In this document: piece by piece, positions 15,190-18,932 of the stretch
Position numbering within the stretch: the first letter of the stretch is position 1
Layout: every line of letters begins with the position of its first letter
Assembly: GCA_017961585.1 (NCBI GenBank)
Contig: JAGCWX010000002.1
Location: 1 to 38,885, forward strand
Source: Elusimicrobiaceae bacterium
GTDB lineage: Bacteria; Elusimicrobiota; Elusimicrobia; Elusimicrobiales; Elusimicrobiaceae
Direction of reading: 5' to 3'
Length of the DNA: 38,885 bases
Notes under the pieces: model-generated
Told to the model about the DNA's origin: nothing
The model's input: only the letters and a program-made list of their open reading frames with translations
Databases searched by the model: none
Made by a program: the position numbers and the translations under genes

Positions 15190-15813
15190 TTAAATTTCTT
15201 TGTGCAAAACTTTGAGGGTGGCTTTTTCTTTGGCTACGGGCAGACATTCTTGCACCGTGTAGTTTTTCCCCTCTACGATTTGGGAAATGGCGGCAATATC
15301 GTCATCGGTAAGAACTTCTTTATCGTACGTGGTGCGGAATTGATACGCCAGCCCGCTTTGCAAAATCAAATCCATGGATTGGCGCAGCACGGCCGAGTTG
15401 GCCTCCACCCCCGTAATAGCAGCGTATTTATCCATAGGTGCTTTTAAGTCCATGGCAATAAAATCCACCAATTTTTTATCAATAAGCTCTTTGATAACTT
15501 CGGGGCGGGTGCCGTTGGTATCCAATTTGATTTTGTAGCCCAGGGCTTTCACATCGGTTAAAAAGCGGACCAGGTCTTCTTGCAGGGTGGGTTCCCCGCC
15601 GGAAATAACAACGCCCTCCAGGGTTCCCTGGCGGCGTTTAAGAAAAGACATAATTTCTTCTTCGGGTACGGACGGTGCAAACAAATGAGGATAGACCAAC
15701 TCCGGGTTGTGGCAATAACGGCAGCGGAAATTACATCCCTGTGTAAACACAATAGCCGCTGGACATCCCGGAAAATCAATTAAAGTAAACTTGACCAGCC
15801 CCCCCAGTTTCAT
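15190..15813 (-). CDS. nrdG: Anaerobic ribonucleoside-triphosphate reductase activating protein NrdG
   Basis: This radical SAM activase abstracts hydrogen from the glycyl-radical glycine of NrdD. The 207-residue product has LIDFPGCPAAIVFTQGCNFR with the cluster motif CNFRCRYC, then HNPELV, GVVISGGEPTLQ, KLDTNGTRP and FIAMDLKAP. Length is typical. The ATG at 15813 gives the normal family N-terminus, although no good ribosome binding site precedes it; it lies 27 bases after the glycyl-radical ORF and may depend on coupling. It is transcribed with that small gene, possibly from the promoter at 16136-16164 as well as from the nrdD promoter. Confidence 0.93.
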   Translation of the reverse strand: MKLGGLVKFTLIDFPGCPAAIVFTQGCNFRCRYCHNPELVYPHLFAPSVPEEEIMSFLKRRQGTLEGVVISGGEPTLQEDLVRFLTDVKALGYKIKLDTNGTRPEVIKELIDKKLVDFIAMDLKAPMDKYAAITGVEANSAVLRQSMDLILQSGLAYQFRTTYDKEVLTDDDIAAISQIVEGKNYTVQECLPVAKEKATLKVLHKEI

Positions 15814-15840: not shown

Positions 15841-16065
15841 CTATTTATCGCTGGCGCAATCGCAACCGCAGCTGCAGCCACCTTCTACGTTCAAGGTTTT
15901 GCGCATAGCAAATTCTTCTTTTTTACCCTTGTTCCAGTTTTGCACCGGGCGCAGATATCCTACTACGCGGGAATATACTTCACATTTAGAACCCTGTACT
16001 TCGTTTAATTCTTTCTTAAGATCCGAAATTTTGGTTTCTACAGCTTGTCTTTCTTGTGCGGTCAT
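15841..16065 (-). CDS. Stand-alone glycyl-radical domain of anaerobic ribonucleotide reductase
   Basis: This 74-residue protein carries the C-terminal glycyl-radical motif normally fused to class III NrdD: CEVYSRVVGYLRP with the radical glycine at 36, then VQNWNKGKKEEF and AMRKT. Residues 1-25 are a charged helix and the tail is cysteine-rich (GGCSCGCDC). The large NrdD upstream ends after its zinc-binding cysteines and a helix and has no RVxGY motif, so the enzyme appears split into two polypeptides. The ORF is 137 bases downstream of nrdD, in a region closed by stops, and has a strong ribosome binding site (AGGAGGAGG), so it is translated independently. The two charged helices at the break (large-subunit C-terminus, small-subunit N-terminus) may pair. 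Confidence 0.85.
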   Translation of the reverse strand: MTAQERQAVETKISDLKKELNEVQGSKCEVYSRVVGYLRPVQNWNKGKKEEFAMRKTLNVEGGCSCGCDCASDK

Positions 16066-16135
16066 AATTGTCCTCCTCCTACAGAGTAAATATTTTTAAA
16101 TATGGCAACAGGTCCGTGAAAACCCATTACTGTTA

Positions 16136-16164
16136 ATTATGGCAATTTGCCAAATCGGTTTCAA
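16136..16164 (-). promoter_or_regulatory. Promoter with palindromic operator for the glycyl-radical subunit and nrdG
   Basis: On the minus strand TTGAAA (16159-16164) and CATAAT (16136-16141) are separated by exactly 17 bases. A perfect 13 bp palindrome TGGCAATTTGCCA (16140-16152) covers the spacer and the edge of the -10, a typical repressor-site position. This would let the glycyl subunit and activase be made separately from nrdD. A related inverted repeat, TTTGGC-4-GCCAAA, lies at 27082-27097. Confidence 0.6.
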
Positions 16165-16168
16165 GTAC

Positions 16169-16201
16169 TTTTTTGAGTTAGCTATGGGCTAACCCAAAAA
16201 A
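16169..16201 (-). repeat. Long imperfect inverted repeat directly after nrdD
   Basis: Arms TTTTTTGAGTTAGC and GCTAACCCAAAAAA surround a short loop, beginning two bases after the nrdD stop. On the minus strand the stem is not followed by a T tract, so it is not a standard terminator. It could stabilise the nrdD mRNA end or cause partial termination. Confidence 0.55.
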
Positions 16202-16202
16202 G

Positions 16203-18263
16203 TTATTTGCTGTAGAGTTGTTCCTCTAACAGCGCAATTTTGCGTTGCAATTCTTGCATACGCTCGGCCTTGCATTTGGGGCATTCAAAATGTTCCCCGG
16301 CAATATAGCCGCATTTGGGGCAGACGCTAAACGTGGGCGTGATGGAGAAATACGGCAAGGTATAGCGTTCGCACACGGTTTTAATAAAGCGTTTCATAGC
16401 ATCCAAATCTTTGATGCGTTCCCCGGTAAAGATGTGCTGCACCGTTCCGCCCGTATATTTGGATTGGATGGTGCTTTGCAAATCTAACATTTCAAAAACG
16501 TCGTCGGTATAGTTCACCGGCAGTTGGGAAGAGTTGGTATAGAACGGCTGGTGCCCCTGTTTATAAAGCGGCTCGTTGGCGCAGATAATTTCGGGGTAGC
16601 GTTCTTTATCCAACTTGGCCAAGCGGTAGGAAGTTCCTTCCGCCGGGGTGGCTTCCAGGTTGTAGTTATTGCCGGTTTCTTCTTGGAATTTGACCAAGGT
16701 TTCGCGCATAAACGTAAGCACTTTTTCGGCAAATTTGCGGCCCTTTTCCGTACCGATATCTTCCCCAATCAAGTTCAGGGCACATTCGTTCAAGCCCACC
16801 AACCCGATGGTAGAGAAGTGGTTCTTCCAAAATTCGCCAAAGCGTTGGCGGATGGAACGCAAGTAAAAGCTCATGTACGGATACAAATTCCCCTTGGTAA
16901 AGCGTTCAATTACTTTGCGCTTAATTTCCAAGCTGGTGCGGGCTACTTCCATACGGTCTTTCAAATTGGCAAAGAATTCGTCTTCATCTTTGGACAAATA
17001 CCCCAAGCGCGGCAAGTTGATCGTTACCACGCCAATGGAACCCGTGAGCGGGGCCGAACCGAACAACCCGCCGCCGCGTTTACGCAATTCGCGGTTATCA
17101 ATACGCAAACGGCAGCACATAGAGCGGGCATCTTCGGGGTTCATGTCCGAATTGATAAAGTTGGCAAAGTACGGAATCCCGTATTTGGCCGTCATTTCCC
17201 ACAAAGGGGTCAATTTGTCGTTATTCCAATCAAAATCTTTGGTGATGTTATAGGTCGGAATCGGGAACGTAAACACGCGGCCTTTGGCGTCGCCGGCTAA
17301 CATCACTTCGCAGAAAGCGCGGTTGAACATATCCATTTCATTTTGGAATTCGCCATAGGTTTTATCCTGCAGTTTCCCGCCAATAATGACCGGTTGGTCC
17401 TTGTAATAAGAAGGCACCGTTAAATCCATCGTTAAGTTGGTAAACGGCGTTTGGAACCCAACGCGGGTGGGCACGTTTACGTTGAATAAAAATTCTTGCA
17501 AGGCCTGTTTTACTTCATCGTAAGAGAGTTTATCATAATAGATAAACGGCGCAAGTAGCGTGTCAAAGTTGCTAAACGCTTGGGCGCCGGCACTTTCGCC
17601 TTGCAAGGTATAGAAGAAGTTGACCACTTGGCCCAAAGCAGTGCGGAAGTGTTTGGCCGGTTTGCTTTCCGCTTTACCGACAACCCCCGTAAACCCGCTT
17701 AAAAGTAAATCTTGCAAATCCCAGCCCACACAATAGGCCCCTAACAAGCCCAAATCGTGCAGGTGGAAATCCCCTTCGCTATGCATACGGCGCACGTTTT
17801 CGGGGTAAATTTTATTAAGCCAGTAGACCTTGCTAATTTCGGACGAGATATAGTTGTTCAGCCCCTGCAAAGAGTAGCCCATATTGCTGTTTTCGTTGAC
17901 TTGCCAGTCAATCTTTTGCAAATATTGGTCTACCAAATCTACGTTAAATTTGGAAGAAATTTCGCGCATACGGGCGTGCTGATCGCGGTAGAGGATGTAG
18001 GCCTTGGCTGTTTTATGATAATTGGAAGTTAACAGCACATCTTCCACAATATCCTGTACATTTTCCACATTGGGGATGGTATCGGAATAAAGCTGCTGGA
18101 TAATGTTAACGGCGCGAATAGTTAGTTTTTTAGCGGTTTCGGCATCAAACTCCCCGGTAGTTTGGGCAGCTTTGGTAATAGCGTTGGTAATTTTTTTCGG
18201 TTCAAACCGTTCGGTAGTTCCATCGCGCTTGACGATGTGGGTGATAACTTCTGCGTTTTCCAT
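16203..18263 (-). CDS. nrdD: Anaerobic ribonucleoside-triphosphate reductase NrdD, catalytic part without glycyl-radical motif
   Basis: Class III ribonucleotide reductase large subunit (686 residues), reducing ribonucleotides to deoxyribonucleotides without oxygen. It has an N-terminal ATP-cone (about 5-98, ITHIVKRDGTTERFEPKKIT), a glycyl-radical-enzyme barrel with the active-site cysteine pair in ARSMCCRLRIDN (383-384), and GSIGVVTINLPRLGYL. A C-terminal zinc site follows, with cysteines at 648, 651, 661 and 664 (CPKC...CPKC). It then ends in a helix of about 20 residues (ERMQELQRKIALLEEQ). The glycine-radical loop expected right after the zinc site is absent and is encoded separately downstream. 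AGGA precedes the ATG and a good promoter lies at 18310-18338. Confidence 0.93.
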   Translation of the reverse strand: MENAEVITHIVKRDGTTERFEPKKITNAITKAAQTTGEFDAETAKKLTIRAVNIIQQLYSDTIPNVENVQDIVEDVLLTSNYHKTAKAYILYRDQHARMREISSKFNVDLVDQYLQKIDWQVNENSNMGYSLQGLNNYISSEISKVYWLNKIYPENVRRMHSEGDFHLHDLGLLGAYCVGWDLQDLLLSGFTGVVGKAESKPAKHFRTALGQVVNFFYTLQGESAGAQAFSNFDTLLAPFIYYDKLSYDEVKQALQEFLFNVNVPTRVGFQTPFTNLTMDLTVPSYYKDQPVIIGGKLQDKTYGEFQNEMDMFNRAFCEVMLAGDAKGRVFTFPIPTYNITKDFDWNNDKLTPLWEMTAKYGIPYFANFINSDMNPEDARSMCCRLRIDNRELRKRGGGLFGSAPLTGSIGVVTINLPRLGYLSKDEDEFFANLKDRMEVARTSLEIKRKVIERFTKGNLYPYMSFYLRSIRQRFGEFWKNHFSTIGLVGLNECALNLIGEDIGTEKGRKFAEKVLTFMRETLVKFQEETGNNYNLEATPAEGTSYRLAKLDKERYPEIICANEPLYKQGHQPFYTNSSQLPVNYTDDVFEMLDLQSTIQSKYTGGTVQHIFTGERIKDLDAMKRFIKTVCERYTLPYFSITPTFSVCPKCGYIAGEHFECPKCKAERMQELQRKIALLEEQLYSK

Positions 18264-18309
18264 AATACGTGTCCTGATTAAAAAATTGCCGCATAGCGCG
18301 GTAAGGTAA

Positions 18310-18338
18310 ATTAAAACAAAAACAAACTAAAATTGCAA
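18310..18338 (-). promoter_or_regulatory. Predicted promoter of nrdD
   Basis: On the minus strand TTGCAA (18333-18338), a 17 base spacer, and TTTAAT (18310-18315), about 45 bases before the nrdD start. I see no NrdR-box consensus nearby. Confidence 0.5.
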
Positions 18339-18562
18339 ATCTTTTTATGAGGGCCTACATTTTACGTCGAAGAACGACTTAAGCGCGGTTTCCAAAAAAC
18401 TGCAAACAGTCTGCTTAATAATAATTATTACTAATAAGCACGTTTGTGTCAAATATTTTGAGGACCTATATTTTTTTGTATAAAAAATAAGCAAATTTCA
18501 AAAAGGGCCTAGGCCCTCAAACGGCTTGCAAAATTCATGAACTTCATTTTTCCATTCGCCCC
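18339..18562. promoter_or_regulatory. AT-rich divergent control region upstream of nrdD
   Basis: No gene lies between nrdD and the small ORF at 18615. The region holds an AT-rich inverted repeat with arms TGCTTA (18412-18417) and TAAGCA (18435-18440) around ATAATAATTATTACTAA. It also holds a perfect 12 bp palindrome GGGCCTAGGCCC (18505-18516) and two related half sites, GGGCCTA (18351-18357) and GGACCTA. These could be operator sites for anaerobic or nucleotide-pool control of nrdD; that role is inference. Confidence 0.4.
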
Positions 18563-18591
18563 TTGACGAACGGCCCAAAACTGATTACAAT
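18563..18591 (+). promoter_or_regulatory. Sigma70-type promoter of the 84-residue membrane protein gene
   Basis: TTGACG (18563-18568), a 17 base spacer and TACAAT (18586-18591). The ATG at 18615 follows with AAGGAGGG before it. Confidence 0.8.
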
Positions 18592-18614
18592 AATAGAGTA
18601 CCAAGGAGGGAGTT

Positions 18615-18869
18615 ATGGATTTCTATCAAGTTTGTGTTCTCATCGCCGTAGTGGCATTTGTTGTATTGGTAGTAGTGGCCGTGCGCGCTATTTTACAAAT
18701 TACCAAAACGGCTCAAGCCGCCGAATATTTAGTGCTCACCACCGCCGAGAAGGTGGACAAAACGCAAAGCACGTTTGAACTTTTGGACAAAGCATCCACG
18801 TTTGTGGACTCGGGCGTATACCGCACCCTTGCCATGGGCATTGACTTATTTAAGCGGCTTAAAAAATAA
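18615..18869 (+). CDS. Small membrane protein of unknown function
   Basis: The 84-residue protein has one N-terminal transmembrane helix (VCVLIAVVAFVVLVVVAVRA) followed by an amphipathic, partly coiled-coil region (ITKTAQAAEYLVLTTAEKVD) and ends in a basic segment (DLFKRLKK). The layout resembles short DUF948-type proteins but there is too little sequence to assign it. It has its own clear promoter, a strong ribosome binding site (AAGGAGGG) and a terminator, so it is a real monocistronic gene, divergent from nrdD. Confidence 0.8.
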   Translation: MDFYQVCVLIAVVAFVVLVVVAVRAILQITKTAQAAEYLVLTTAEKVDKTQSTFELLDKASTFVDSGVYRTLAMGIDLFKRLKK

Positions 18870-18888
18870 ACTGTTTTCGCCCACAAAA

Positions 18889-18917
18889 ATCCCCGGTTTA
18901 ACACCGGGGATTTTTTT
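18889..18917. terminator. Bidirectional terminator
   Basis: ATCCCCGGT pairs with ACCGGGGAT (ending at 18911) around a five base loop, followed by seven T on the plus strand and preceded by an A tract that serves the convergent gene. Confidence 0.88.
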
Positions 18918-18932
18918 AACTTAAACTATCTT

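Follow-up and report, generated by a model that had tools for sequence, protein, structure and literature searches.

We identified the intergenic stretch at positions 16066-16205 of the window, the whole 38,885-nt stretch of DNA analyzed here, as a real, conserved and locus-specific control element, in which a promoter is likely, an operator is doubtful and excess production of the downstream radical subunit is supported by sequence comparison. The reading that we favor, and hold to be fairly probable, is that of a structured intercistronic control region in the operon of a split class III ribonucleotide reductase, composed of nrdD, the gene of the glycyl-radical subunit and nrdG2. Comparison among relatives shows a hairpin (H1) that closes the nrdD message, a likely sigma70-type promoter with an extended -10 element abutting H1, a conserved mRNA hairpin (P3) where the transcript of that promoter is predicted to start, and, for the small subunit, a predicted Shine-Dalgarno (SD) sequence far stronger than that of either neighbor. 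In the model built on these elements, the radical subunit and the activase would be expressed from nrdD read-through plus a short transcript protected by its 5' hairpin, and the small oxygen-sensitive subunit would thereby be in excess over the catalytic part. A dyad located in the promoter spacer (P2) would belong to the same control element, with no visible regulon.

The window is contig 28 of a 1.49-Mb genome (98% complete) of a gut member of the Elusimicrobiota. Its closest named records, many of which come from ruminants, are MAGs of uncultured Elusimicrobium and Elusimicrobiaceae, with Candidatus Avelusimicrobium among them. nrdD (16203..18263, minus strand) codes for the large part of a class III ribonucleotide reductase, a 686-aa protein with an ATP-cone, an NRDD barrel and a Zn-cysteine motif (Pfam/NCBIfam). 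It matches the Pfam NRDD profile only to position 538 of 562, the chain ends past the zinc cysteines, and a regular expression search revealed no glycyl-radical motif in its 686 residues. The missing motif is carried by the adjoining chain of 74 aa (RVVGYLRPVQNWNKGK; 15841..16065, minus strand), which matches NRDD positions 531-560, confirming the two reductase halves described in an earlier note on this DNA. The next gene (15190..15813, minus strand) encodes an NrdG2-type activase (TIGR02495, 222.7 bits for a cut-off of 131.15). A small protein of the 74-aa type is encoded in all 37 genomes of the same genus, the window's included, and the only match to it in 24 genomes of the sister family lies within a 722-codon open frame, as expected for an undivided gene. 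The division of nrdD is thus a fixed trait of the window's lineage. A split class III reductase of Elusimicrobiota with a separate radical chain was not found in the literature searched.

At its C terminus, the small subunit has a tail (15841-15900 in the window, and its equivalent in relatives) that varies rapidly and contains Cys-Gly/Cys-Asp repeats in most rows of the comparison described below, e.g. GGCSCGCDCASDK. In the L119-L121 group, which includes UBA1174, the small subunit bears a long Asn/Thr/Ser-rich tail. In another phylum, a match (L135, Candidatus Margulisbacteria, MFRH01000053.1) is located in a frame of 191 codons that extends further at the C terminus, and nrdD may have been divided independently there.

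A promoter scan, shuffles and the comparison of relatives located a -35 element TTGAAA (16159..16164, minus strand) and a -10 element CATAAT preceded by TGC (16136..16141, minus strand). The resulting TTGAAA-17-(TGC)CATAAT arrangement (16164-16136, minus strand) has 10 of 12 consensus matches with TG ahead of the -10, as expected of a sigma70-type extended -10 promoter (hexamers 16-18 nt apart, TGn before the -10), and its sequence and coordinates are those given in the earlier note, which had placed it between the two reductase halves. Its score was 11.66 compared to a mean of 6.05 when the 140-nt region around it was dinucleotide-shuffled (p = 0.016, the minimum reachable with 60 shuffles). 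Because a scan of 8 kb returned 13 promoter-like sites for 10.8 expected, a single such site proves little. With a promoter only nominally significant when taken alone and a dyad that is not, the case must therefore rest on comparison. Two other candidates were rejected: a sigma54 promoter, whose -24/-12 consensus misfits by eye, and a gene on the opposite strand, as just short, unsupported frames are listed.

To this end, 76 distinct nrdD-to-small-subunit gaps were compared, corresponding to 79 loci from named records minus six (L127, L128, L130, L131, L132 and L135, which do not lie behind an nrdD end of the type seen here or belong to another phylum), plus the window and two further genomes. 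Scored with general promoter weights that do not derive from the window's genome, the promoter reached p ≤ 0.05 against dinucleotide shuffles in 36 of the 76 rows, where about 4 were expected; the score lacked individual significance in the 40 others. A strict criterion (TTG, 17±1 spacing, -10) retained 39/76 rows, including three (L061, L085 and L122) in which the picked site lies away from the usual place, and TG precedes the -10 in 27 of these 39. The -35 is poor in rows of clade c3, and the promoter anchor is a mere position mark for several of these rows and for L079. Among relatives, the -10 reads CATAAT, GATAAT, TATGCT, TAGAAT, AAAAAT or GAAAAT, as well as TACAAT below the strict cut. 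It thus varies within the consensus family at a 17-nt spacing, usually after TG, which is the pattern expected from selection for promoter function and not for one sequence. Furthermore, the place of the promoter, its 17-nt spacing and the extended -10 recur across deeply separated clades. A sigma70-type promoter, often with an extended -10, is likely present in the gap between nrdD and the small-subunit gene.

Immediately upstream of the -35, H1 (16203-16167, minus strand) consists of 16 pairs and a 5-nt loop (p = 0.016 against shuffles). The long inverted repeat reported straight after the nrdD stop is therefore real, and it overlaps the stop codon at the final base. H1 reached p ≤ 0.017 in 56 of 75 rows, and it ends 0-5 nt ahead of the -35 in 50 of the 58 anchored rows having p ≤ 0.05. 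The stem varies in a compensatory manner, with 5 of 11 pairs altered on both sides. Of 61 genomes, 14 have the exact H1 motif, in a single copy that always sits at the junction between nrdD and the small-subunit gene, ruling out a dispersed repeat. An intrinsic terminator was also ruled out since the U-run is absent: only 2 T occur within the 8 nt that follow H1 in the window, and none of the 75 rows has 5 or more. The A-tract of the 3' arm stops just ahead of the -35, a place that fits the location of UP elements, and may do double duty as hairpin arm and UP element.

On the other side of the promoter, we found a hairpin that the earlier note had missed. P3 (GTAATGGGTTT-TCAC-GGACCTGTTGC; 16105..16130, minus strand) lies 3' of the -10 and carries a UCAC loop (UUUCACGG) whose two closing pairs are U.G, in 29 and 33 of 34 rows. 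These 34 rows form alignment A6, drawn from 36 rows after dropping L065, where the finder had put P3 in the H1 loop, and leaving out L025 for want of coordinates. Compensatory changes are evident in the stem, as 7 of 9 pairs are altered on both sides, and covariation amounted to 0.234 compared to 0.124 when shuffled, a value reached by none of 500 shuffles; slid versions gave at most 0.118. A covariance model run on 41 genomes under stricter search filters returned matches at E ≤ 1e-3 in 15 genomes, every one at this locus, and the best match off the locus had E = 0.003. P3 was recognized in just 34-36 of the 76 rows. No Rfam family reached its gathering score for the hairpin or the gap in the window, which rules out a known Rfam element. 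Of the 23 rows that have both elements, 22 place the beginning of the P3 stem 3-9 nt beyond the -10. Because this coincides with the +1 predicted from the -10, P3 looks like the 5'-terminal hairpin of a putative short message.

The promoter is not retained throughout the window's own clade. In the NrdD tree, whose clade labels are crude (some c3 rows bear the label c5_no, and the pair L085/L087 that of c4) with no effect on the branching, nine rows including the window group together with a support of 95. Four of them (L057, L060, L061 and L133) lack both H1 and the -35, L058 has both hexamers degraded, and only the window, L059, L062 and L083 keep the promoter. As promoter-less L057 pairs with promoter-bearing L062 (support 80), at least two separate losses probably occurred. 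The independent promoter claimed by the earlier note thus holds for its conserved place, 17-nt spacing and extended -10, but five of nine rows of its own clade are devoid of it or carry a degraded version. This loss suggests that the promoter is useful but dispensable, an accessory to nrdD read-through, which must by itself be able to suffice; likewise, nrdD, the small gene and nrdG2 must be readable as one operon, since members of the window's clade have lost the promoter. Conversely, P3 is kept in 8 of the 9 rows, and P2 and P3 outlast the deletion of H1 and the -35. P3 must then also act in the read-through message, given its retention in promoter-less relatives.

In several clades, the -35 strand pairs with sequence past P3 or past the -10 to form a long-range helix, P1. 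Its strands in close relatives are CCGUGUG/CACACGG, CCGCACGC/GCGUGCGG and CCGCGCG/CGCGCGG. MAFFT misplaced the 3' strand of P1 in alignment A1, and RNAalifold consequently returned a structure without P1 there; strand swapping was used instead, a test in which kinship among rows can mislead. Swapped strands matched the native pairing once in 5000 trials for A1, never in 2000 for the wider c1 set and 48 times in 2000 for c3. The test was weak in c2 (100/2000) and in the five-row c4 (171/2000) and negative in c5 (1827/2000), and P1 has no counterpart in the window. Read-through RNA would thus be structured independently of the promoter, and this forms the basis of the strongest rival reading.

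According to this rival, H1, P2 and P3, enclosed by P1 in several clades, are RNA elements of a single nrdD-small subunit-nrdG transcript that direct processing or stabilization of its downstream part, and the hexamers are incidental. The covarying P1 strands, whose native pairing beats swapped strands, argue for it, as do P2 and P3 remaining where H1 and the -35 are deleted. However, the hexamers and their 17-nt spacing stay where P1 is absent (the window and c5) or weak (c2), and the position of P3 at the +1 predicted from the -10 is left unexplained, so that we consider an RNA-only element rather unlikely. We regard as very improbable that the A+T-rich gap contains a fortuitous promoter-like match and palindrome, with the inverted repeat alone being real. 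Such a coincidence would agree with the near-expected count of the 8-kb scan (13 vs 10.8) and with the p of 0.058 obtained for the dyad of the single sequence, but is disfavored by the repetition of place, spacing and extended -10 over deeply separated clades and by the covariation of P3.

The earlier note had further proposed that a repressor or activator binds a palindrome in the promoter spacer, placing the radical subunit under a signal other than that of nrdD. This proposal is compatible with the promoter of the control region that we favor, and our estimate bears on whether the operator is real, which we judge unlikely. The perfect palindrome is present as described (TGGCAAATTGCCA; 16152-16140, minus strand), in a single copy in the window's genome, and an equally good dyad arises in 5.8% of shuffled spacers (p = 0.058). 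The earlier note had called for a search of relatives: the arms TGGCA/TGCCA are identical in 18 of 76 rows, and a block comprising the dyad and the -10 (TGGCAAAGTGCCATAAT) is invariant across all 12 rows of A1, which speaks for an operator, but the geometry shifts across clades, as the left arm is variable and the loop in other rows measures 3, 4 or 7 nt. The right arm overlaps the extended -10, which accounts for it, and a TGCCAAAAT-like element without the left arm precedes nrdD in relatives. Dyads of different sequence occur in or close to the promoter of other clades, again as an operator would predict: in c5, a distant clade, GCAAA-N4-TTTGC occupies the same place ahead of the -10 (p 0.002-0.016 for 6 of the 10 rows tested under the c5 label, the mis-grouped L079 among the ten), and AGTTGC-N4-GCAACT spans the -35 in another.

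Conversely, we observed no dyad regulon. The exact dyad has 15 extra copies in the 37 genus genomes, compared to 4 for a reversed control; 10 of the 11 copies examined lie inside open frames of at least 80 codons. The dyad is also retained in relatives without the promoter. The candidate regulator NrdR was not detected, with 0 matches to TIGR00244 in the window's 98% complete genome (9 of 14 controls positive), and an NrdR box or regulon was rejected on that ground. With copies nearly all in open frames, shifting arms and spacing, and persistence without the promoter, the operator claim finds no support in the form given. The dyad may serve a dedicated single-site regulator as its operator or may form a small hairpin in the read-through RNA, the latter being slightly favored because the geometry of the dyad is not fixed. 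That the region upstream of nrdD carries different conserved elements is in keeping with an operator.

This gap of about 670 nt (18264-18932, minus strand) has its own conserved elements in relatives, as judged by eye: TTGACA followed by an A+T palindrome (TTATTAGTAATAATTACTAWTAA), a dyad TTCTCCGACGGAGAA, and another promoter-like sequence, TTGCAN-17-TGYYAAAAT. Upstream of nrdD in the window and 18 relatives, inspection by eye showed no TGGCA/TGCCA dyad and no P3.

Within the favored control region, the 3' end of the leader (16066..16085, minus strand) contains the SD sequence of the small subunit (AGGAGGAGGA). Using a general anti-SD sequence not taken from the window's genome, the predicted duplex amounts to -11.8 kcal/mol for the small gene, compared to -4.0 for nrdD and -3.2 for nrdG. 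The predicted SD of the small gene is stronger than that of nrdD in all 54 relatives in which both starts are placeable, and stronger than that of nrdG2 in 66 of 68. These predictions support an excess of the radical subunit that would arise in translation, irrespective of the promoter. The notion that radical subunit and activase are both made in excess is thus borne out for the radical subunit, which has the strongest predicted SD, but not for the activase, which has no stronger SD.

Internal promoters and stabilizing 5' stem-loops, such as the ompA 5' hairpin, are known from bacterial operons. The arrangement described here resembles these cases by a probable second promoter within an operon and a hairpin at the 5' end of the message, and differs from them in that the UUUCACGG hairpin of the window matches no Rfam family at gathering score. 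The split reductase of Pseudomonas aeruginosa belongs to class II and functions without a glycyl radical. As in that system (PMC4520616), one reductase chain is encoded here as two genes. NrdD of Prevotella copri (PMC11226230) shares the ATP-cone, barrel, Zn site, glycyl radical and radical-SAM activase, but has its radical domain at the C terminus, whereas in the window this domain forms a chain of its own, 74 aa long, which has a separate leader and ribosome-binding site. E. coli YfiD/GrcA and phage T4 Y06I provide a spare glycyl-radical domain for pyruvate formate-lyase (PMC8683613). Like them, the small protein is an autonomous glycyl-radical protein apart from the catalytic part and is also borne by phages; unlike them, it serves the reductase NrdD and not pyruvate formate-lyase. 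It would also be more than a spare, namely an obligate subunit, because the catalytic chain of NrdD itself lacks a radical domain.

Stand-alone copies occur on mobile elements. T4-like phages possess vs.6, a small ORF that matches Gly_radical (PMC1524935). The window's genome carries a second stand-alone glycyl-radical gene on contig 9 (L050; 2829-3008, minus strand), flanked by genes for a phage integrase (L050:1416-2603) and for an endolysin (L050:3820-4239), which makes it a prophage-borne copy. IMG/VR viral contigs L180-L186 and L188-L191 likewise encode short stand-alone NrdD-type glycyl-radical proteins. Reverse transcriptase, endolysin, tail, lysis, integrase or CI-like repressor genes lie near those of L180 and L182, and L181, L183-L186 and L188-L191 were examined for the glycyl-radical motif only. 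Since phages carry the radical subunit alone, its exchange in trans seems plausible, and the repair-type role suggested by the earlier note becomes more plausible through these phage-carried copies. Oxygen destroys glycyl-radical enzymes at the radical glycine. We tentatively propose, as a possibility that may well prove wrong, that the radical domain of the class III reductase of gut Elusimicrobiota is a disposable cartridge, a separate subunit produced in excess through its own promoter and a hairpin-protected message, swapped after cleavage by oxygen, and supplied in trans by temperate phages, which carry the cartridge gene by itself and would so sustain the dNTP supply of the host.

The conserved stretch, with its apparent second promoter and RNA hairpins, would let the cell make the fragile radical half of its reductase separately and in larger amounts. 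With a separate, separately expressed radical chain, subunit-exchange repair becomes directly testable for DNA-precursor synthesis, as for pyruvate formate-lyase, and the phage copies suggest that phages make use of such exchange. Furthermore, the conserved leader offers a defined handle on the dosing of the radical subunit in a phylum with few cultures.
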